From an uncultured Desulfobulbus sp. (GTDB taxonomy: Bacteria > Desulfobacterota > Desulfobulbia > Desulfobulbales > Desulfobulbaceae): a stretch of DNA of 64,000 nucleotides. Below are positions 3,771 through 58,363 of this stretch, in pieces. Under the pieces are notes generated by a model. It worked only from the letters and a program-made list of their open reading frames with translations, was not told the origin of the DNA and made no database searches. Position numbers and translations under genes: made by a program. Numbering within the stretch: the stretch's first letter is position 1; the number at the start of each line of letters is the position of its first letter. Where the stretch lies: the NCBI RefSeq assembly GCF_963665445.1, contig NZ_OY762276.1, positions 3,838,601 to 3,902,600 on the forward strand. The letters run 5' to 3'.

Positions 3771-4001
3771 ATGACAATAATGATAGGGATTCACCAGAAA
3801 CAGGATAAGATTGATAACTTGTATGAAAATTTGGGCCTGCGTGCCGCATCTCTTGCAACGGCCGGACCGTTCGCATCCAAAGAAGAGGCGCTGGAATGGC
3901 AGGAGGGGGTTCATTTAAAATTGAAGGGTTGTTCAATTATAGAACCCCTTGGGCCCGATGTGGAAAGCGTTCCATGGTATGGCTTCTCTTTCGAGAAATA
4001 A
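3771..4001 (+). CDS. Small hypothetical protein
   Basis: A 76-residue soluble protein beginning MTIMIGIHQKQDKIDNLYEN. The start is chosen because GAGGGG sits 5-9 nt upstream of this ATG. The gene is followed within 10 bases by a near-perfect hairpin terminator, which supports it being a real expressed unit. A segment reading AGPFASKEEALEWQEGVH suggests a small alpha/beta fold of the kind that checks or binds a ligand, but I recognise no family. The long upstream extension of the frame has no coding character and is not included. Confidence 0.55.
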   Translation: MTIMIGIHQKQDKIDNLYENLGLRAASLATAGPFASKEEALEWQEGVHLKLKGCSIIEPLGPDVESVPWYGFSFEK

Positions 4002-5405: not shown

Positions 5406-6041
5406 ATGAAAGATATCGAACGATTCATCAAAGGATTCCGCCAATTTCAGGAAGATTATTTCACTGCGAAAAATGCCCCGTTTGAACCGCTGAAACAGGG
5501 ACAAAGCCCTAAAACCATGCTGATCGGCTGCTCCGACTCGCGCGTGGACCCTGCCATTCTTACCCAATGTGCCCCTGGAGACATCTTTGTGGTACGCAAC
5601 GTGGCCAACCTGGTACCTCCGTACGAGCAGGGGACAGGCTTGCACGGTGTGAGTGCGGCCCTTGAATATGCGGTGTGTCATCTGGAAATCGAGCACCTGA
5701 TCATTTTGGGGCACTCCAAATGCGGTGGCATCCATGCCCTGATGGAATCGGAACAGTGCGAGGGTGAGAACTGCGGCTTCATCGACCGCTGGATGTCCAT
5801 TGCAGCGCCGGCAAAGGTCAAGGTTCTGGCCGAGCTCCCCGGCAAGGAACCCCGGCTGCAACACCGGGCAGTCGAGCAGGCCGCACTTTTACTGTCGCTT
5901 GAAAACCTGCAGACCTTTCCCTGGATACGAGAGGCTATGGCAAGCGGACATCTTGCCCTGCACGGCTGGTATTTTGATATCGAAGCGGGTGAACTGCTGG
6001 AATACCAGCCGACCAATGGAGGCTTCGTCACGATCAGCTGA
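5406..6041 (+). CDS. Beta-class carbonic anhydrase
   Basis: A 211-residue enzyme that interconverts carbon dioxide and bicarbonate using a cysteine-coordinated zinc. The signature GCSDSRVDP at residues 41-49 gives C42 with the D44/R46 dyad, and GHSKCGG at 102-108 gives H103 and C106, completing the zinc ligands. Length is normal for the family and there is no signal peptide, so it is cytoplasmic. The final residues (NGGFVTIS) also match the usual ending of this family. The ribosome binding site upstream of ATG 5406 is weak (ACGGACAC). The gene is monocistronic. In an anaerobe it would supply bicarbonate for carboxylations or help with pH balance, which is inference. Confidence 0.95.
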   Translation: MKDIERFIKGFRQFQEDYFTAKNAPFEPLKQGQSPKTMLIGCSDSRVDPAILTQCAPGDIFVVRNVANLVPPYEQGTGLHGVSAALEYAVCHLEIEHLIILGHSKCGGIHALMESEQCEGENCGFIDRWMSIAAPAKVKVLAELPGKEPRLQHRAVEQAALLLSLENLQTFPWIREAMASGHLALHGWYFDIEAGELLEYQPTNGGFVTIS

Positions 6042-50283: not shown

Positions 50284-51030
50284 TCACCTTTTGAAAAAGG
50301 CCAGCAGGGCGTGCAGGGTGGTCATCGGATGGGGTGGGCAGCCGGGAATATAGAGGTCAACCGGTACCAGGGAGGAGAGGTCGCCCACAATCTGCTCGGA
50401 TCCATGAAAGGGCCCCCCGGAGATGGAGCAACAGCCGCTGGCAATGACCACCTTGGGCGCAGGCACTGCCGCATAGGTCTCCAGCAGGGCGGTCTTCATG
50501 TTGCGGGTGATCGGGCCGGTCACATGGATGCCGTCGGCATGGCGGGGAGAGGCGACAAAATCGATGCCGAAACGGGAAAGATCAAAAAAGGGCGTGTTGA
50601 GCACGTTGGTATCCGCTTCACAGGCGTTGCAACCGCCAGCGGACACCTGACGCAGCTGCAGGGAACGGCCAAACAATTTCTTGAAATGGGCCTTGCTGTG
50701 TGCGGCAAGATCGGGCAGGGTTCCACCGGTGATCAGATCCTCGCGGTTGGCCGCCCCAAGTTCGAAGCAAGAGCTGAAACGGACAAAGGCGCCTTGGGCC
50801 ACTTGGGCACAGAGACCGCAAAAGGTGCATCGCCCCAGATCGATTTTTTTCTCGTCGGCAAGGATAGCCTCCTGCGGACAGAGTTCGGCGCATTGGCGGA
50901 CAATGGCCGGATCGCAGTCGCGGTTGATCTCCGGCATCCCGCGAAACCGCGAATACAACTCTACCGGCCTTTTGGGGTAGCCGTTGGTTCGATACCCCTG
51001 TTCCAGTCTGTTTCCGATCACCTTCAGCAT
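50284..51030 (-). CDS. Ehr-like small subunit (ferredoxin/NuoB-like fusion)
   Basis: A 248-residue protein joining an N-terminal ferredoxin domain to a NuoB/HycG-like small subunit. C39, C47 and C51 and C68, C71 and C74 lie in the ferredoxin part; the last cysteine of the second motif is replaced by alanine (CGLCAQVAQ), so probably one [4Fe-4S] cluster remains. The NuoB-like part has GGCNACEAD (C134, C137), SGCCSISGG and PGCPPHP, giving the proximal cluster. AGAGGACAAG precedes the ATG. It is the last gene of the six-gene complex and would take electrons toward the large subunit. It corresponds to HyfI/EhrS. Confidence 0.88.
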   Translation of the reverse strand: MLKVIGNRLEQGYRTNGYPKRPVELYSRFRGMPEINRDCDPAIVRQCAELCPQEAILADEKKIDLGRCTFCGLCAQVAQGAFVRFSSCFELGAANREDLITGGTLPDLAAHSKAHFKKLFGRSLQLRQVSAGGCNACEADTNVLNTPFFDLSRFGIDFVASPRHADGIHVTGPITRNMKTALLETYAAVPAPKVVIASGCCSISGGPFHGSEQIVGDLSSLVPVDLYIPGCPPHPMTTLHALLAFFKR

Positions 51031-51092
51031 CTTGTCCTCTCCTCTCTCTTGTCCATCCCCTTGCCCACCTGTCCCTGTCCCGGCCTGTCCAT

Positions 51093-52604
51093 TTAGAGGT
51101 CAAAGCCGCAGTAACTGAGGTTGAAACTCTTGTTACACAAGGGAAAATCGGAAATTTCCTGGTTGCGCAGCGCCATGGCCAGTCCTGTCCAGTTGTGGAA
51201 CGAAGGGTCCTTCACCTTGTAGCGGATGAGCCTGCCCTCATCGTCGGTCAGCAGGCAATGGGCCACCTCCCCCCGCCAGCCTTCATTGATGCTCACCACA
51301 AAACTTGATGGGGCCAGCGGCTGTTGTCCGCCCCAGGTCGACTGCTCGGTGTCCGCATCCATGGCCAGCAAGGCCTCGATCAGAGCAAGGGAGTGGATGA
51401 TCTCCTCGTTGCGGACCATGGCCCGGCTGTACACATCGCCATTGGTGACCTGATTGATGTGGGCCGGGAGCTGATTGTAGAGCTCGATCGGAAAACTGGC
51501 ACGCACGTCGTAGTCCAGGCCGGATGCCCGCCCGCAGTAGCCCACCAGCCCCAGTTGGGCCGCGACTTCCCGGCTGACCGTTCCTGTGTTTTCAAACCGG
51601 CCCAGCACCGTGTGGGCGGAAAAGAGCAGGTCGCTGACATGGACGATCTCCGGGCGCAGTTCCTTGAGCTTCGCCGCGATGATGGTACGTTGTTCCGCAC
51701 CCATGGCCTGGGTCACGCCGCCGGGCCGCAGCAGACTCTTGCCGAATCGGTTGCCGCAGAGGGTCAGCAGCAGGTTGAGGAATTCACCGCGTATACGCCC
51801 GAAATAGGCTGCCGGAGGATTGAAGGCAACATCTCCGCTGAGCGCACCGAGATCACCAATATGATTGGCAATCCGCTCAAGCTCAAGCGCAATCGTCCTC
51901 ACGACTCGCCCCCCTGCGCCTACCTCCAGGCCGGCCAGGGCTTCGACCGCCTGGCAGCAGCAGAGATTATGGCCGATGGTGGTATCCCCGGCAATGGCCT
52001 CACAGATCACCGGCCACCTTGATTGCGCCACTCTCGGCAAGAGTTGCTCCACGCCCCGATGCTGGTAGCCCAGCTGAATCTCGAGATGGAGCACCTCTTC
52101 CCCGGCGCACTGAAAACGGAAATGGCCCGGTTCGATGATGCCGGCATGCACCGGTCCGACCCCCACCTCATGGATCGACTCGCCTTCCACCCGGAAATAG
52201 GGATAGTTGCCGGGAATATCCTCCCCGTAGTCGTTGGCGAACACATCTTCCCTGCCAGCGAGATTGGGGTGGTAGCGCACCATCTTCAGCCAGGGATGCC
52301 CCAGGGGGCGCAGTCCGTACTGCTCGGCGATCTCCCGCTCAAACATGCTGAATTTGGCCCCACCCAGCAGGGTGAGCGAACGAAACTCCTCCTCGACCAC
52401 GGTTTCCACCACATAGAGGCCGTTGTTGCGCAAAACCGCCAGCAACCGGGTTTCGCCGTCACTCTCGTAGGCAAAAAGATGGACGATATACCCCTCGTAA
52501 TGGACAAAATCGCTGAGCATCTGAGAAAATTTCGTCAGGGGCAGACAGGGAATCGTGTTGCGGGCAATGCACTGGCCGTTGCTGATCTGCAAAAAATTAT
52601 CCAT
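51093..52604 (-). CDS. Ehr-like large subunit without NiFe-ligand cysteines
   Basis: A 503-residue protein matching a fused NuoC-NuoD/HyfG-type hydrogenase large subunit. The N-terminal NuoC-like part ends near residue 125. In NiFe hydrogenases the L1 motif reads CGIC; here the aligned stretch is AGDTTIGH (A205, T208), and the C-terminal DPCxxC is replaced by SFNLSYCGFDL. The metal ligands are therefore missing and it cannot hold a normal NiFe site. This is the pattern described for Ehr (energy-converting-hydrogenase-related) complexes. ATG 52604 with GGAGG 8 nt upstream overlaps the preceding gene by 8 nt. Confidence 0.9.
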   Translation of the reverse strand: MDNFLQISNGQCIARNTIPCLPLTKFSQMLSDFVHYEGYIVHLFAYESDGETRLLAVLRNNGLYVVETVVEEEFRSLTLLGGAKFSMFEREIAEQYGLRPLGHPWLKMVRYHPNLAGREDVFANDYGEDIPGNYPYFRVEGESIHEVGVGPVHAGIIEPGHFRFQCAGEEVLHLEIQLGYQHRGVEQLLPRVAQSRWPVICEAIAGDTTIGHNLCCCQAVEALAGLEVGAGGRVVRTIALELERIANHIGDLGALSGDVAFNPPAAYFGRIRGEFLNLLLTLCGNRFGKSLLRPGGVTQAMGAEQRTIIAAKLKELRPEIVHVSDLLFSAHTVLGRFENTGTVSREVAAQLGLVGYCGRASGLDYDVRASFPIELYNQLPAHINQVTNGDVYSRAMVRNEEIIHSLALIEALLAMDADTEQSTWGGQQPLAPSSFVVSINEGWRGEVAHCLLTDDEGRLIRYKVKDPSFHNWTGLAMALRNQEISDFPLCNKSFNLSYCGFDL

Positions 52605-54024
52605 GGAGAGTCCCTCCAATGGCGGCTATGGCCCCGGCAATCACCTGATACAAGACGGCTGGCATCCACAGACAGAGCACCATTGAGCTGAGGAGCAGGG
52701 CAAACGGTGGCACAATCCGCCAAAAAGATTCGCCAATCTTGACCTCTTCCTTGAAGGGGGCAAAGGAAAGCGCAACGACGATGCGCGAAAAACCGGCCAC
52801 CACCAACACCAGGGCGGCAATAAACAGGGCACCGGCCAGAGAATGGCCGCTACGAAAGGCTCCCAAGATAATCAGCAGTTCACTGAGAAAGAGGCCAAAG
52901 GGCGGCAGGCCGGAGATACCGACGAATCCCGCGAAAAAAGCGACAAAGGTTTTGGGCAAGATCTGCACCATGCGGCCACAGCGGGCGACCAGCTTGGTGC
53001 CGAAGCCGAGCACCAGATTACCGGCCGAGAGAAAAAGCGAGGACTTGAGCAGGGAATGGTGGATGAGGTGGAGCATGGCCCCATAGACGCCGATACCGCC
53101 GACCCCGACGCCGAAGGCGATGATACCCATGTTCTCGATGCTCGAATAGGCCAGCATCCGTTTGTAGTCGGATTGATTGAGAATGAAGATACCGGCCACC
53201 ACGATGGAGAACAGGCCAAAGCCCATCAGCAGCTGTCCGGAAAAGTCGCCCAGACCGGCCAGCACCATCACCGTATGCACCTTGTAGATGCCGAGAAAGG
53301 CACAGTTCAACAGGGCGCCGGAGAGCAGCGCCGAGGCAGGGCTGGGAGCCTCGCTGTGGGCATCCGGCAGCCAGGTGTGCATCGGCGCCAGCCCCATCTT
53401 GGTGCCGAACCCAATCAACACAAAGGCAAAACCGGTCTTCAGCCAGAGAGGGTCGAGGCTGGCCGCAACCCGGTTGAGCGAGGTAAAACTCAGCGGCAGG
53501 TCCAGGCCCGCCTGCTCCAGGGCCAGGGTAATGAAGAAGAAGCCCAGCAGGGCCAGGGCAATGCCCACGGAACAGATAAGGACATACTTCCAGGTGGCCT
53601 CCAGGGCCTTTTTCGAGCGATGGACGAAAATCAGGGGTGCGCTGACCAGGGTGGTGGTCTCCACCGCGATCCAGAAGACGATCGGGTGCTCGGCCACCGC
53701 GGCCATGCTCATCGCCCCGACAAAGAGGAGCATCGAACCGATAAAGACCGGCTCGCTCGCCGTTTCCTGCGCCCGCATGTAGAATACGGCATAGGGGGCG
53801 ATGAAGACAAAGATAAAGGCGGTGACCACCAGCACCAGCATGCCCTCGGGGGCGGTGCCGAAGTAGGCCGGCAACAGGGGCTTCAGGGGTGAAAGCCAGG
53901 CGAACAACGCCAGCTGCAGCTGCAGCAGCGCGCCGATGACCAGGATCACCCGGCCCAGTTTCACCGGAAGGCGCAGGGCGATCAGGCCGAGGACCAACGG
54001 CAGGCAAAAAACAGATTCCAACAT
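52597..54024 (-). CDS. Ehr-like antiporter subunit (HyfF/NuoN-like)
   Basis: A 475-residue, about 13-14-segment membrane protein of the Mrp/NuoL-M-N family. The central proton-channel residues are suggested by GFGTKMGLAPMHTWLPDAHSE (split motif GTKMGLAP and HTWLPDAHS), with EAPSPASALLSG following, and by KRMLAYSSIENMGII. It should move protons or sodium ions as part of the complex. AAGGA lies 9 nt before ATG 54024; a TTG at 54033 overlapping the previous stop is the alternative. It corresponds to EhrD or HyfF, the second antiporter-like subunit after the large one at 55709. Confidence 0.88.
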   Translation of the reverse strand: MLESVFCLPLVLGLIALRLPVKLGRVILVIGALLQLQLALFAWLSPLKPLLPAYFGTAPEGMLVLVVTAFIFVFIAPYAVFYMRAQETASEPVFIGSMLLFVGAMSMAAVAEHPIVFWIAVETTTLVSAPLIFVHRSKKALEATWKYVLICSVGIALALLGFFFITLALEQAGLDLPLSFTSLNRVAASLDPLWLKTGFAFVLIGFGTKMGLAPMHTWLPDAHSEAPSPASALLSGALLNCAFLGIYKVHTVMVLAGLGDFSGQLLMGFGLFSIVVAGIFILNQSDYKRMLAYSSIENMGIIAFGVGVGGIGVYGAMLHLIHHSLLKSSLFLSAGNLVLGFGTKLVARCGRMVQILPKTFVAFFAGFVGISGLPPFGLFLSELLIILGAFRSGHSLAGALFIAALVLVVAGFSRIVVALSFAPFKEEVKIGESFWRIVPPFALLLSSMVLCLWMPAVLYQVIAGAIAAIGGTLHG

Positions 54025-54029
54025 AACAT

Positions 54030-54683
54030 TCAATCCTTGAGCTGTTCCAGGTAGGTGGTGTCGACGTCGTCAAAGGCGCGGTTGATGTTGTGGAGAATGA
54101 TCCCCATGATCATCACCCCGACGAGCAGGTCCAGGAGCACCCCGAATTCGACCAGATAGATGGAGCGCGAGTGTTTGGTCAGGGCCGTGCCCACCAGGTA
54201 GATGCCGTTTTCAAGCATCAGGTAGCCGATGACCTGGGTCAGGGCCTTGGTTCGACTCATCATCAGAAACAGACCGCCCCCCAGGGTGGTGATGGCGGTG
54301 ATCAGCAGCAGGGTGTACTCGCCATGGAGGGTGACGGCAAGTCCGCGACTGATAAACACCGCTGCCAGGACCAGGACAATCCCGGCAAGCAGGGAGGCGT
54401 GGTAGCCGATCAGGGGTTCGACCTCGCGCTTGATCGAAATCCGGGTCAGGGCAAGGTAGAGCAGCCCCGGGATCAGTGCCGCCTTGATCAGAAGCATCAG
54501 CTGAAAAAAAAGGATACCGCCGTTGCTGAGGCGAAGGTTCGGTTCAAGGAAAATAGGGGCCAGGGAGACCAGCGCGCCCTGCAGGGCCATGAGCTTGATC
54601 AGGGCCATCATCCGGCTCGACCCGAGCGACAGCAGCACGGTGAGGAGAAGCGTGACCAGAATCAGATCCAGGGTATGGTTCAT
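54030..54683 (-). CDS. Ehr-like NuoK/HyfE subunit
   Basis: A 217-residue membrane protein with about seven membrane segments, like HyfE/HycD-type subunits with a NuoK-like C-terminal half (MLENGIYLVGTALTKHSRSI, then VEFGVLLDLLVGVMIMGIIL). Its ATG overlaps the preceding stop by 1 nt (TGATG). Within the complex it probably forms part of the lateral proton path between the NuoH-like and antiporter-like subunits. No odd features. It corresponds to EhrC. Confidence 0.85.
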   Translation of the reverse strand: MNHTLDLILVTLLLTVLLSLGSSRMMALIKLMALQGALVSLAPIFLEPNLRLSNGGILFFQLMLLIKAALIPGLLYLALTRISIKREVEPLIGYHASLLAGIVLVLAAVFISRGLAVTLHGEYTLLLITAITTLGGGLFLMMSRTKALTQVIGYLMLENGIYLVGTALTKHSRSIYLVEFGVLLDLLVGVMIMGIILHNINRAFDDVDTTYLEQLKD

Positions 54684-55597
54684 CAGGCAAACTCCATGGT
54701 GAGAATGATGGCAAGAAAGGCCAAGGCAAAGGCACTGAGAAGATACTTGGGAACAAGCGGCATCTTCAGGCGGGCCGTCACCGATTCGGTGATGCCGATG
54801 GCGATAGAGACCAGGGTCAGTCCGCCGAAGAACCAGAGAAAGTTGGCCAGCACACCCATCTCTGGAACAGGCTTGAGCAGACAGGTGATCCAGGCCGCAT
54901 AAAACAAGAGTTTATAAAAAGCGCCCAGTTCGATCAGGGCCAGATCAGGACCACTGTGGTCGAGAATCATGGCCTCGTGAATCATGGTCAACTCCAGATG
55001 GGTGGCGGGATCATCCACCGGCACCCGCGAATTCTCGGCCAAGAGGATCATGAACAGGGCCACCACGATCAAGAGCAACAGCGCCCCCTGATCACCGAAA
55101 ATGGAGATGGCCTCGGTTCCGCCAAAGTAGCGTCCCAGGCTGAAGGCGCCGTTCATACGGAAAAAAACCACAAGAATGACGAAGGTGCCCAGTTCCGCCA
55201 GGGTTGCGAAAAAGGCCTCACGGGCCGCGCCCATCCCCTCAAAGGGCGAGGCCGTATCCAGGGCGGCGAGTATGGTGAAAAACCGGCCGAGTCCCATCAG
55301 GTACAACACGAAAAGCACATCGCCACGAAAGGAGAACAGGGGCGGGCAGCCGGCCAGGGGAAAAAAGAGCAGGACCAATGTGGCGGTAGCGCAGGAAACC
55401 ACCGGCCCCAGACAAAAGACCAGACTGGTGCTGCGGCTATAGACCGATCCCTTGCGGAACAGCTTGGCCAGGGTGAAGTACTTGATCAACAGGGGAGGCC
55501 CTTTTTTGCCGGCGAACAGGGCCTTGGTTTTCAGGATGATTCCGGGAAAAAGCGGGGCCAGAAGAAGAGACAAGAGAAATGCACCAAGAGATTCCAT
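54683..55597 (-). CDS. Ehr-like NuoH/HyfC subunit
   Basis: A 304-residue, eight-segment NuoH/HyfC/HycD-like subunit. In complex I and group 4 hydrogenases this subunit links the soluble redox arm to the ion-pumping membrane arm. Conserved features are SRVPVDDPATHLELTMIHEA, AMILDHSGPDLALIELG and the acidic residues in the third loop, and GAFFATLAELGTF-like spacing. It starts at ATG 55597, about 110 nt after the antiporter subunit, and overlaps the next gene. It corresponds to EhrB. Confidence 0.9.
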   Translation of the reverse strand: MESLGAFLLSLLLAPLFPGIILKTKALFAGKKGPPLLIKYFTLAKLFRKGSVYSRSTSLVFCLGPVVSCATATLVLLFFPLAGCPPLFSFRGDVLFVLYLMGLGRFFTILAALDTASPFEGMGAAREAFFATLAELGTFVILVVFFRMNGAFSLGRYFGGTEAISIFGDQGALLLLIVVALFMILLAENSRVPVDDPATHLELTMIHEAMILDHSGPDLALIELGAFYKLLFYAAWITCLLKPVPEMGVLANFLWFFGGLTLVSIAIGITESVTARLKMPLVPKYLLSAFALAFLAIILTMEFA

Positions 55598-55708
55598 CGT
55601 CTACCTCACCTCCTCAAGTCGACGCGCTGTCGGCGCCTGCCCTTGTTCTCCAATCGGCCTCTTGACCGCTTGGCCCGAGTCTATCGTACTGTGCATTTTG
55701 CCTCCTCC

Positions 55709-57667
55709 TCAATAGGCGATCATCACCAGCAGCACTGCAATGGTGAAGACGATATACGCGATATACAACTGGATATGCCCATGCTGAATCCAGCGCATCC
55801 GTTCGACCATGCCCAACAGGGGATTGAGCACCAGACGCTGCAGCCCCTGTTCGGCAAGGTCTGTGACCTTTGCGCTGTAACGGGCCGATGCCGGGAAGAT
55901 CTTTGCAATCGGGGTTGCCCGGTCGCTGATCCCCACCAGGGGATGATTGAAATCAACCATGCTGCGGGCATAGGAGGTTCCCGTATACTGAATGCGAGCC
56001 GTGCCTTGGCTAAACCCGCATCCCCAGGTCGAATTTTCCTCGATGGGTTTGCCCCGGTAGAGCAGACGGCGCAGCAGGGCCACGGCAATCAACCCGAGCA
56101 GCGCGGTCCGTGCCGCCGTGGCCAGGGCCTGGCCCATGTTGGCCAAGGTCTCGTGGGCAGCGCCGTCCGCAACAAGGCCGCTGATGCCCTGGGCGACGAA
56201 ACCGATCAGGGGTTCGGGCCAGAGCCCCACTAAGAGACAGCCGACGCTTAACAGGGTCATGGCCAGACGCATGCTCGCCCCCGCCTCATGGGGGGCTTTG
56301 GCCAGTGGATGACGCGGCTCGCCGAGGAAGGTGGCGCCCACCATCTTGGTAAAACAGGCAGCAGCCAACCCACCGATCAGCGCCATCGCCAGCAGGGCCG
56401 CCACCGTGATCAGCAGTGTTTTGCCGTGGTGGGACAGTCCCTGAAAGGCTGCACAGTAGATGAGAAATTCACCGACAAAACCATTGAGCGGCGGCAATCC
56501 GGCAATGGCGGCCGATCCGAGAAGGACATTCTTGCCGGTCACCGGCATCTGCCGCATCAGCCCTCCGAGCCTGTCCATATTGCGAATTCCACAGGCATGG
56601 AGCACGGCCCCGGCCCCGAGAAAGAGCAGGGATTTGAACAGGGCATGATTCAGCAGATGCACCAGCGCGCCGGTAAAGCCGAACAGGGCCATGGTCGGGT
56701 TGCCGATACTTACGCCCAGCATCCCTAGCCCGCAGCCGATAAGAATGATACCGATATTTTCAATACTTGAATACGCAAGCAACCGTTTGATATCTTTCTC
56801 CGCCAGGGCGTAGGCCACCCCGAGCACACCGGAGACGATCCCCACCAGAAGGACCGCCCAGGCAAAGACCGGGGTCTTGTCGGCCAGGAGGAGATAGAAA
56901 CGGAGGATTCCGTAGATCCCCATCTTGATCATCACCCCGGACATCAGGGCAGAGACATGGCTGGGTGCGGCAGGATGGGCATGGGGAAGCCAGATATGGA
57001 GCGGGACGATGCCGGCTTTGGAGCCGAATCCCACCAGGGCGAGAAAAAAGGCCAGCAGTCTGACCCCGTGGGAGAGCGTCTCCCAGGAGGTGAAGGTCAG
57101 GGAACCGGTGGCGGTGAACACCACGCCAAAGGCGGCAAAAACGCAGAGTGCGCCGGCCTGGGTAAAGAGCAGGTAGCGGACTGCCGCCTCCTGCACCTCC
57201 TGTTTTTCCCAGTCGACCAGCACCAGAAAGAAGGAAGAGAGCGACATCAACTCCCAGGCAAGGGCAAAGGTGAGCATGTTCGCGGCCAGCGTCACGAGGA
57301 CCATGGCAATCAGCAGCAGGCTGAAAAAGAACTGGCTGACCAACGACCGAAGGCAATGCGCGGGCGTATCGAGATAATCATACCCGTACAAACCGAGGAT
57401 CGGGGCCACAAGGAAAATCGGGAGGAGAAATACCCGACTCAAACCATCGACCCTGACGGAAAAGGTAAACACCCGCAGCCAGTTCCAGTCGCCCCCGGCA
57501 GGACCAACCGTTAGCGGGGAGGCAAACAGGGCAAAGAGACCGCAGGCCGCTCCCAGACTCAGCAGGGCAATATGGCTGGCCTTGGCAACGGCAAACCATC
57601 GTCTGAGTGCAAACGGGGCTATTCCGCCGGCAAGGAAACAGCAAAGAGCGAGCAAGAGCGTATCCAT
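55709..57667 (-). CDS. Ehr-like antiporter subunit (HyfB/NuoL-like)
   Basis: A 652-residue NuoL/HyfB-type membrane protein, the first gene of the six-gene operon. Family motifs are AWELMSLSSFFLV (with the conserved glutamate), GSKAGIVPLHIWLPHAHPAA (split: GSKAGIVPLHIW and LPHAHPAAPSHVSALMSG), and KRLLAYSSIENIGII. The C-terminal 100 residues form an extra helical region. It should carry proton or sodium translocation. ATG 57667 with GAGG upstream was preferred to one at 57715. A 650-base leader lies upstream with several hairpins. It corresponds to EhrA. Confidence 0.9.
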   Translation of the reverse strand: MDTLLLALCCFLAGGIAPFALRRWFAVAKASHIALLSLGAACGLFALFASPLTVGPAGGDWNWLRVFTFSVRVDGLSRVFLLPIFLVAPILGLYGYDYLDTPAHCLRSLVSQFFFSLLLIAMVLVTLAANMLTFALAWELMSLSSFFLVLVDWEKQEVQEAAVRYLLFTQAGALCVFAAFGVVFTATGSLTFTSWETLSHGVRLLAFFLALVGFGSKAGIVPLHIWLPHAHPAAPSHVSALMSGVMIKMGIYGILRFYLLLADKTPVFAWAVLLVGIVSGVLGVAYALAEKDIKRLLAYSSIENIGIILIGCGLGMLGVSIGNPTMALFGFTGALVHLLNHALFKSLLFLGAGAVLHACGIRNMDRLGGLMRQMPVTGKNVLLGSAAIAGLPPLNGFVGEFLIYCAAFQGLSHHGKTLLITVAALLAMALIGGLAAACFTKMVGATFLGEPRHPLAKAPHEAGASMRLAMTLLSVGCLLVGLWPEPLIGFVAQGISGLVADGAAHETLANMGQALATAARTALLGLIAVALLRRLLYRGKPIEENSTWGCGFSQGTARIQYTGTSYARSMVDFNHPLVGISDRATPIAKIFPASARYSAKVTDLAEQGLQRLVLNPLLGMVERMRWIQHGHIQLYIAYIVFTIAVLLVMIAY

Positions 57668-58363
57668 ACGAGGGAGCCTCTCAACAGAGCGAAGAAAGAA
57701 GGGGGAGACGAGCAAGGTGAGCCCTCCCCCCGGATGATCGAGAAAGGAAAAAACAGCGGCAAAGCCTGTTCAAAAAAGGACAACAGGCAAAAGACGGACT
57801 ACAGACGCACAGGGGCCGCCCCATAACAAACCTCCGCTAAACGCTTACACCGAAAAGTCGGTGCGGAGGCTCAGGGCAAGCGGTTCGGGCGGCGAGAATG
57901 TCTCAGCAGGGCGAACAGGGAGCGAAGAGAAAGAGGGTAAAAAGAGGGGAAGCAACAGGGCGCGGAGGAATTGCGCACGCACAGCACGGGGGGCCGTGCT
58001 GTTCACAGCCGGACTCCTGCAGAGAAAAAGGCGGGAACCCGCCCCGAAAAGACAGCACGATAGACCACAAACACAAGTAAGCGCGTTGTCCCCGTACTGC
58101 CGGGCAGAAGGCCTCGGAAAGCCGATGACAACGCGGTTGGGGGCACACTTCCCCCCAGGGTCAAGGACACGAGCGTGTGCATGGTCTGCTGGTACCACCA
58201 CCGATTGAAAGGATCGCGGCAACTCGCGCCAGCTGAGGCACGGGTCAATTCGGGGGAGCACCTTACCGCGCTGCAGGCAAACAGACCAATAAATAAAATT
58301 GATAGGTGCAAAGAAAGCCGGTCAGGCTTCCTTCGCACCGGGCATGAGAACGCTCCGGAAAAC
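57668..58363 (-). other. Long non-coding leader upstream of the Ehr-like operon
   Basis: About 650-700 bases with no supportable gene. GC-rich open frames occur on both strands but encode low-complexity residues. Hairpins include CCTCCG (57831-57836) with CGGAGG (57864-57869), enclosing CACCGA/TCGGTG, also GCCTGTT/AACAGGC (57764-57788), and the palindrome GGCGGGAACCCGCC (58030-58043). I could not match them to a known riboswitch. Confidence 0.5.

Follow-up and report, generated by a model that had tools for sequence, protein, structure and literature searches.

The window analysed here is a stretch of 64,000 nucleotides from contig NZ_OY762276.1 of an uncultured Desulfobulbus sp. (assembly GCF_963665445.1, positions 3,838,601 to 3,902,600). 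Between positions 50284 and 57667 it carries six co-directional genes on the - strand that resemble hyfB, hyfC, hyfE, hyfF, hyfG and hyfI of E. coli and encode an Ehr-type complex, the subunits of which are termed EhrB, EhrC, EhrE, EhrF, EhrL and EhrS (Table 1). Taken as a whole, this complex is probably a redox-driven ion pump related to complex I and formate hydrogenlyase that is not a hydrogenase, to which a role in inorganic-carbon physiology is attached less firmly.

An Ehr-type operon related to formate hydrogenlyase

Pfam families matched five of the six subunits, and EhrE was recognized by an NCBIfam model only. EhrB was assigned an ATG start at 57667, with an alternative in-frame TTG at 57715. 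The best solved relatives of the large and small subunits are those of membrane-bound hydrogenase (MBH) and formate hydrogenlyase, with phmmer matches of EhrL to MbhL (PDB ID: 6cfw, E 4.1e-38) and HycE (PDB ID: 7z0s, E 3.8e-37). The complete six-gene order recurs in 19 of 20 loci of the Ehr subtype to which the window's operon belongs, the 20th being cut by a contig end; because of these E-values and this retained order the six-gene system is not a product of chance, and the Ehr-like layout proposed in a preliminary description of this DNA holds. Its neighbours in the window are genes for an HDOD protein and for a DEAD-box helicase. Besides several NiFe hydrogenases, the genome, a single contig of 5.08 Mb, encodes three NuoD-type complexes.

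Members of the Ehr family are reported to have group 4-like subunits, mostly lack the NiFe ligands and have no assigned function (PMC6349859, PMC10284858, PMC7894505, PMC12342949), while the Ehr of D. ruminis is reported to have all four cysteines (PMC3569383). The window operon likewise encodes a large and a small subunit of the group 4 kind alongside NuoH-like and antiporter-like proteins, without the NiFe cysteines. It shares these traits with published Ehr systems (Geobacter GSU0739-45, Nitrospirales and others; compared through the literature) and differs in its fused, one-cluster ferredoxin domain and, among relatives, in linked LCIB-type, β-carbonic anhydrase and SulP genes. Absence of the NiFe site and lack of an assigned function are already in print; the carbon-gene link described below is a new lead. 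Among experimentally characterized systems, formate hydrogenlyase and hydrogenase-4 (Hyc, Hyf; 7z0s) have, along with MBH, the nearest large and small subunits, and their membrane subunits are shared with the window complex except for HyfD. However, the window complex lacks CGIC, DPCxxC, the C-terminal tail, HyfA and HyfD, has HyfH fused to HyfI, and carries THLELT instead of EAEQEL.

Table 1. Coordinates of the Ehr subunits, large-subunit motifs and other genes of the window
Feature	Position	Strand	Basis
EhrB, HyfB/NuoL-like antiporter subunit	55709..57667	-	PF00361 2.2e-56; NCBIfam hydrogenase 4 subunit B 2.8e-165, below its cut-off
EhrC, NuoH/HyfC-like, Ehr motif VDDPATHLELTMIHE replacing FDxxEAEQEL	54683..55597	-	PF00146 (NADHdh) 4.6e-26; alignment
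EhrE, HyfE-like, C-terminal half NuoK-like	54030..54683	-	NCBIfam PRK11492 2.1e-19, below its cut-off
EhrF, HyfF/NuoM-like antiporter subunit	52597..54033	-	PF00361 (Proton_antipo_M) 1.6e-46
EhrL, HyfG/NuoCD-like large subunit (NuoC+NuoD) without NiFe ligands	51093..52604	-	PF00346 (Complex1_49kDa) 1.2e-37
AGDT of EhrL (residues 205-208), replacing CGIC	51981..51992	-	Alignment; D207 in 134/138, T/S208 in 137/138 rows
NKSFNLSYCGFDL of EhrL (residues 491-503), C-terminal, replacing DPCxxC	51096..51134	-	Alignment
EhrS, HyfI/NuoB-like small subunit, N-terminal ferredoxin domain	50284..51030	-	PF01058 (Oxidored_q6) 4.7e-26
76-amino-acid (aa) protein, family adjoining Ehr operons in the genus and other Desulfobulbales	3771..4001	+	No Pfam family at E <= 1
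β-Carbonic anhydrase, gene 1.4 kb beyond that of the 76-aa protein	5406..6041	+	PF00484 1.1e-48

A conserved pocket at the position of the NiFe site, and a proposed electron path

EhrL was aligned to E. coli HyfG, HycE and NuoCD. The four NiFe cysteine columns are occupied by A205, T208, S497 and G500, none of them Cys, in agreement with the loss of ligands claimed in the preliminary description. The C-terminal CYSC of HyfG and HycE corresponds to S497-Y-C499-G500 (DPCYSC becomes NLSYCG), so that C499 sits between ligand columns rather than in one. EhrL terminates in SYCGFDL at the point where the tail of HyfG and HycE would start, which we take to be the maturation protease site. EhrL has neither the two CxxC motifs of group 4 NiFe hydrogenases nor the C-terminal extension that these lose on maturation. 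An active hydrogenase is rejected because the NiFe ligands are absent.

The residues in place of the ligands are themselves conserved. Across 138 aligned EhrL rows, of which three (L262, L263 and L268) belong to another NiFe-less type, one (L218) is a NuoD and one (L066) is truncated, the C-terminal pocket columns are retained as N491 in 133, K492 in 133, S493 in 135, N495 in 130, S497 in 135, Y498 in 133, G500 in 134 and D502 in 137 rows, and the signatures GD[T/S] and NKSxNxSYxGxDL each occur in at least 130 rows. A single Cys at column 205 occurs in one row (L228). THLELT is found in the NuoH-like subunit of 145 of 149 proteins from Ehr loci, whereas HyfC, HycD and NuoH have EAEQEL there; some genomes occur twice in the sets on which the pocket and THLELT signatures were counted. 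Since the replacement residues and THLELT are nearly invariant, the alignments point to a specific conserved pocket with a dedicated reaction rather than decay. A degenerating relic is ruled out for the family by conservation of the pocket across these rows.

C499 is kept in just 111 of the 138 rows, with Ser or Ala in the other 27. This bears on the possibility that Ehr resembles the archaeal MBS complex and that its pocket reduces sulfane or another sulfur compound. The sulfur metabolism of the hosts, the relatedness of MbsL (6u8y) to EhrL and the location of C499 in the pocket fit such an activity; a cysteine replaced in 27 rows is not, however, essential in all members, Rhizobium, Burkholderia and Methylovirgula carry Ehr as well, and we consider a sulfur reductase very unlikely.

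A large-subunit tree (FastTree, 69 sequences, 357 columns, rooted on NuoD) places all 58 CxxC-less sequences, eight of them from named plasmids and none from Geobacter or Nitrospira, in one Ehr clade with local support of 0.89. The clade contains none of the active hydrogenases sampled and is sister to L262, L263 and L268 (0.97), then to Hyf/Hyc (0.997). The placement within active NiFe hydrogenases that the preliminary description had named as refuting it is therefore not seen, although Ehr and its sister lineages as a group nest among group 4 hydrogenases. L262, L263 and L268 constitute a second NiFe-less large-subunit type, with SGTS and ASFGLSNAECDR motifs and without THLELT.

Of 195 relatives, 95 carry Ehr (E 1e-60); across the phylum it was detected in 93 of 394 genomes, and in a gammaproteobacterial class sample in 35 of 276 (E 1e-90). 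Plasmid-borne Ehr occurs in Variovorax, Rhodococcus, Rhizobium, Azospirillum, Methylovirgula and Burkholderia, the 89 plasmid records matched also containing true hydrogenases. For a family spread across many phyla, the near-invariant pocket argues for a dedicated reaction and not a dead hydrogenase.

EhrS provides the proximal-cluster ligands Cys 134, 137, 201 and 231, which are present in 119 of 119 small subunits with a ferredoxin domain; among 34 short small subunits without this domain, one row deviates. The EhrS ferredoxin domain has a single complete set of cysteines (51, 68, 71 and 74). By motif-based assignment, the second ferredoxin motif is without its final Cys in 55 of 55 members of the window's subtype, whereas 53 of 63 others have it. 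The transmembrane helix (TM) 5 Glu and TM7 Lys are retained in both EhrB and EhrF by alignment, and the TM8 position is Lys in EhrB and Asn in EhrF, as in HyfF. The pump capacity expected in the preliminary description is thus matched by intact antiporter residues.

Could this machinery reduce quinone? A ferredoxin:quinone oxidoreductase that binds quinone in the EhrL pocket would be consistent with superfamily membership, the proximal cluster and the cavity-forming subunits. The quinone-site His and Tyr of NuoD in complex I are replaced by I156 and G206 in EhrL; EPGHFR and the pocket resemble HycE and not NuoD, and the genome already carries three NuoD-type complexes. No NADH module (NuoEFG) was found in the operon or its window flanks in the ORF (open reading frame) list or by Pfam. 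We regard quinone reduction as unlikely.

Our interpretation is firmest for a redox pump akin to complex I that has an active site of its own and is not a hydrogenase, and a redox-linked pump of this kind is highly probable. At the level of sequence the subunits, gene order, absence of NiFe ligands and tail, pocket, proximal ligands, antiporter Glu and Lys and E-channel motif are established. A low-potential donor, probably ferredoxin, would feed electrons into the one cluster in the ferredoxin domain of EhrS; from there they would move on to the proximal cluster, to be used for a reaction in the EhrL pocket (D207, T208, N491, K492, S493, N495, S497, Y498 and D502). The THLELT/IHE loop of EhrC may then transmit a change to EhrE, EhrF and EhrB, which would translocate H+ or Na+.

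Inorganic-carbon genes beside Ehr operons of relatives

In other Desulfobulbales genomes with the same subtype, carbonic anhydrase and SulP genes flank Ehr. The preliminary description, which stands as to the Ehr layout and ligand loss and agrees with the intact pump residues, had missed both these flanks and the conserved pocket. A gene for a carbonic-anhydrase-type protein of the LCIB fold is present in 35 of 60 genomes with the window's subtype vs 8 of 135 without, and in 27 subtype genomes it is no more than 8 kb from the EhrL gene, on the same strand; these and the following linkage counts are not independent, as related genomes share ancestry, which inflates them. In 37 of 67 non-gammaproteobacterial LCIB loci the gene is 65 to 793 bp from the Ehr operon (33 upstream, 4 downstream), and linkage is also seen with the other Ehr subtype (L125, L215). 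LCIB-type genes about 45% identical occur in sulfur-oxidizing and other Gammaproteobacteria without Ehr (L169-L182), beside SulP in two Sedimenticola loci.

The Ehr-linked protein of relatives matches the LCIB fold, with a PF18599 score of 22.9 for the first member against a cut-off of 25 bits, and has about 15% identity to LCIB/LCIC and PtLCIB4 (PDB ID: 5b5y, 5k5w, 5b5x); no LCIB sequence was matched in a PDB sequence search with the LCIB-type alignments. Residues C54, D56, H89, H92, H95, H106 and C133 are invariant in 44 rows, and segment 76-91 of the model, which contains conserved His, is of low confidence.

Copies of a SulP permease with a STAS domain, at 65% identity or more, are encoded in 39 subtype genomes; in 14 of these the gene is no more than 12 kb from Ehr, and two of the 14 (G162, G174) have no LCIB-type gene. 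This SulP gene adjoins a β-carbonic anhydrase gene in at least eight genomes, which would favour bicarbonate over sulfate as the substrate. One gammaproteobacterial draft genome has a SulP-like gene immediately upstream of EhrF and EhrL (L328, 173-5484), and B, C and E genes were not seen there.

At least 6 of 60 subtype genomes encode β-carbonic anhydrase itself no more than 12 kb from Ehr and, among the matches listed, four have it just downstream. Outside the subtype it is weak as a general neighbor of Ehr, occurring in L059, L220, L254 and also L087. At L341, a small gene, the LCIB-type gene, EhrB-C-E-F-L-S and, directly after EhrS, a β-carbonic anhydrase gene follow one another on one strand. 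At least one of LCIB, SulP and β-carbonic anhydrase (the last among the matches listed) lies within 12 kb in 31 of 60 subtype genomes. Because three unrelated gene families cluster with the subtype in several arrangements, its link to inorganic carbon is likely; whether this amounts to a role in inorganic-carbon physiology is, in our judgment, evenly balanced.

A literature search for a connection between Ehr and carbonic anhydrase listed one relevant report, on an Acidithiobacillus caldus hyfBCEFG cluster that immediately adjoins a β-carbonic anhydrase gene and was interpreted as a hydrogenase (PMC3826726). DAB2 (DabA2-DabB2) and NDH-1MS are complex-I-type proton modules coupled to CO2 hydration (PMC13144422). 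Their likeness to Ehr lies in the carbonic-anhydrase-type genes that accompany the operon in relatives, though not beside the window operon; the candidate partner, to which Ehr would be coupled, is an LCIB-type protein or β-carbonic anhydrase. We speculated that the subtype could be a redox-driven vectorial CO2-hydrating complex, a third kind next to NDH-1MS and DAB, in which electron flow through EhrS and EhrL powers proton removal and pumping and so drives one-way hydration by the associated anhydrase. This proposal is rather doubtful; if true, such an Ehr would supply bicarbonate to autotrophic anaerobes, cable bacteria included.

Alternatively, the genes may form a carbon-supply island that merely contains Ehr as a general energy converter, with CO2 neither its substrate nor its product. 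That LCIB-type genes without Ehr and Ehr without LCIB-type genes are both common makes this a possibility of some weight, if still short of probable, but tight co-directional packing in the 37 loci, linkage with the other subtype and the anhydrase gene of L341 sit poorly with it. A serious, though improbable, alternative is a formate-linked module, in which a formate dehydrogenase would supply the electrons for ion pumping by Ehr and the role of the carbonic anhydrases would be confined to clearing the resulting CO2. Ehr subunits are more abundant in formate-grown Geobacter sulfurreducens (PMC7894505), a formate dehydrogenase-Ehr complex has been proposed for Margulisbacteria and Saganbacteria (PMC6349859), and EhrL shares ancestry with HycE/HyfG. 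However, no formate dehydrogenase is annotated beside seven plasmid Ehr loci and none was recognizable among the clustered flank families inspected (flank genes outside clusters were not annotated singly), and the module leaves SulP unexplained.

Several observations weigh against our reading of Ehr as a pump tied to inorganic carbon. The analysis pins down no substrate, donor or acceptor, the same outcome as in the preliminary description, which had left donor and acceptor unassigned, and the Ehr of G. sulfurreducens KN400 has been called nonfunctional (PMC13194489). Some purified LCIB proteins were without carbonic anhydrase activity (PMC5876011). Many Ehr loci lack these carbon genes: one query each found no LCIB or β-carbonic anhydrase relative in 20 gammaproteobacterial Ehr loci, and neither is annotated beside the seven plasmid loci. 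Conversely, none of 13 gammaproteobacterial carriers of an LCIB-type gene has Ehr, and of 17 further genomes in which such a gene is unlinked, 7 lack Ehr. Closer to the window, none of the 12 genomes of its genus with this subtype has LCIB, SulP or, among the matches listed, β-carbonic anhydrase within 12 kb, and a genome search gave no LCIB match in the window genome. A search of the 20 gammaproteobacterial Ehr flanks for a shared partner gave none.

The repeated tie to carbonic-anhydrase-type and SulP genes nonetheless provides the first concrete physiological condition under which Ehr can be tested here, limiting CO2, and Desulfoprunum benzoelyticum (L131) and Desulfofustis glycolicus (L161) are named isolates for such a test.

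The window genome and other Ehr loci

The 76-aa gene of the window is 47 kb from Ehr. Genes of its family stand immediately upstream of Ehr in L068, L070, L071 and L078 and of LCIB-type genes elsewhere; among nine window-genus genomes with both the family and Ehr, the family's gene is within ~7 kb of the EhrL gene in six and on another contig in two. The 76-aa protein may therefore belong to the Ehr system, and the β-carbonic anhydrase of the window could be functionally linked to Ehr. These two genes are the only thread that joins the window's own Ehr to carbon genes, and that the pump and the carbon role both hold for this genome is a tentative proposal, somewhat less than evenly balanced.

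Two Ehr operons of differing subtypes lie less than 20 kb apart in L229, L264, L265 and L280. The other Ehr subtype often has a neighbouring gene for a regulator with helix-turn-helix and phosphotransferase system EIIA (PtsN-like) domains (for example L052, 2835-3590), the cluster being found in 24 of 60 and 9 of 14 loci, and two Ehr loci of Burkholderia have HPr annotated nearby.
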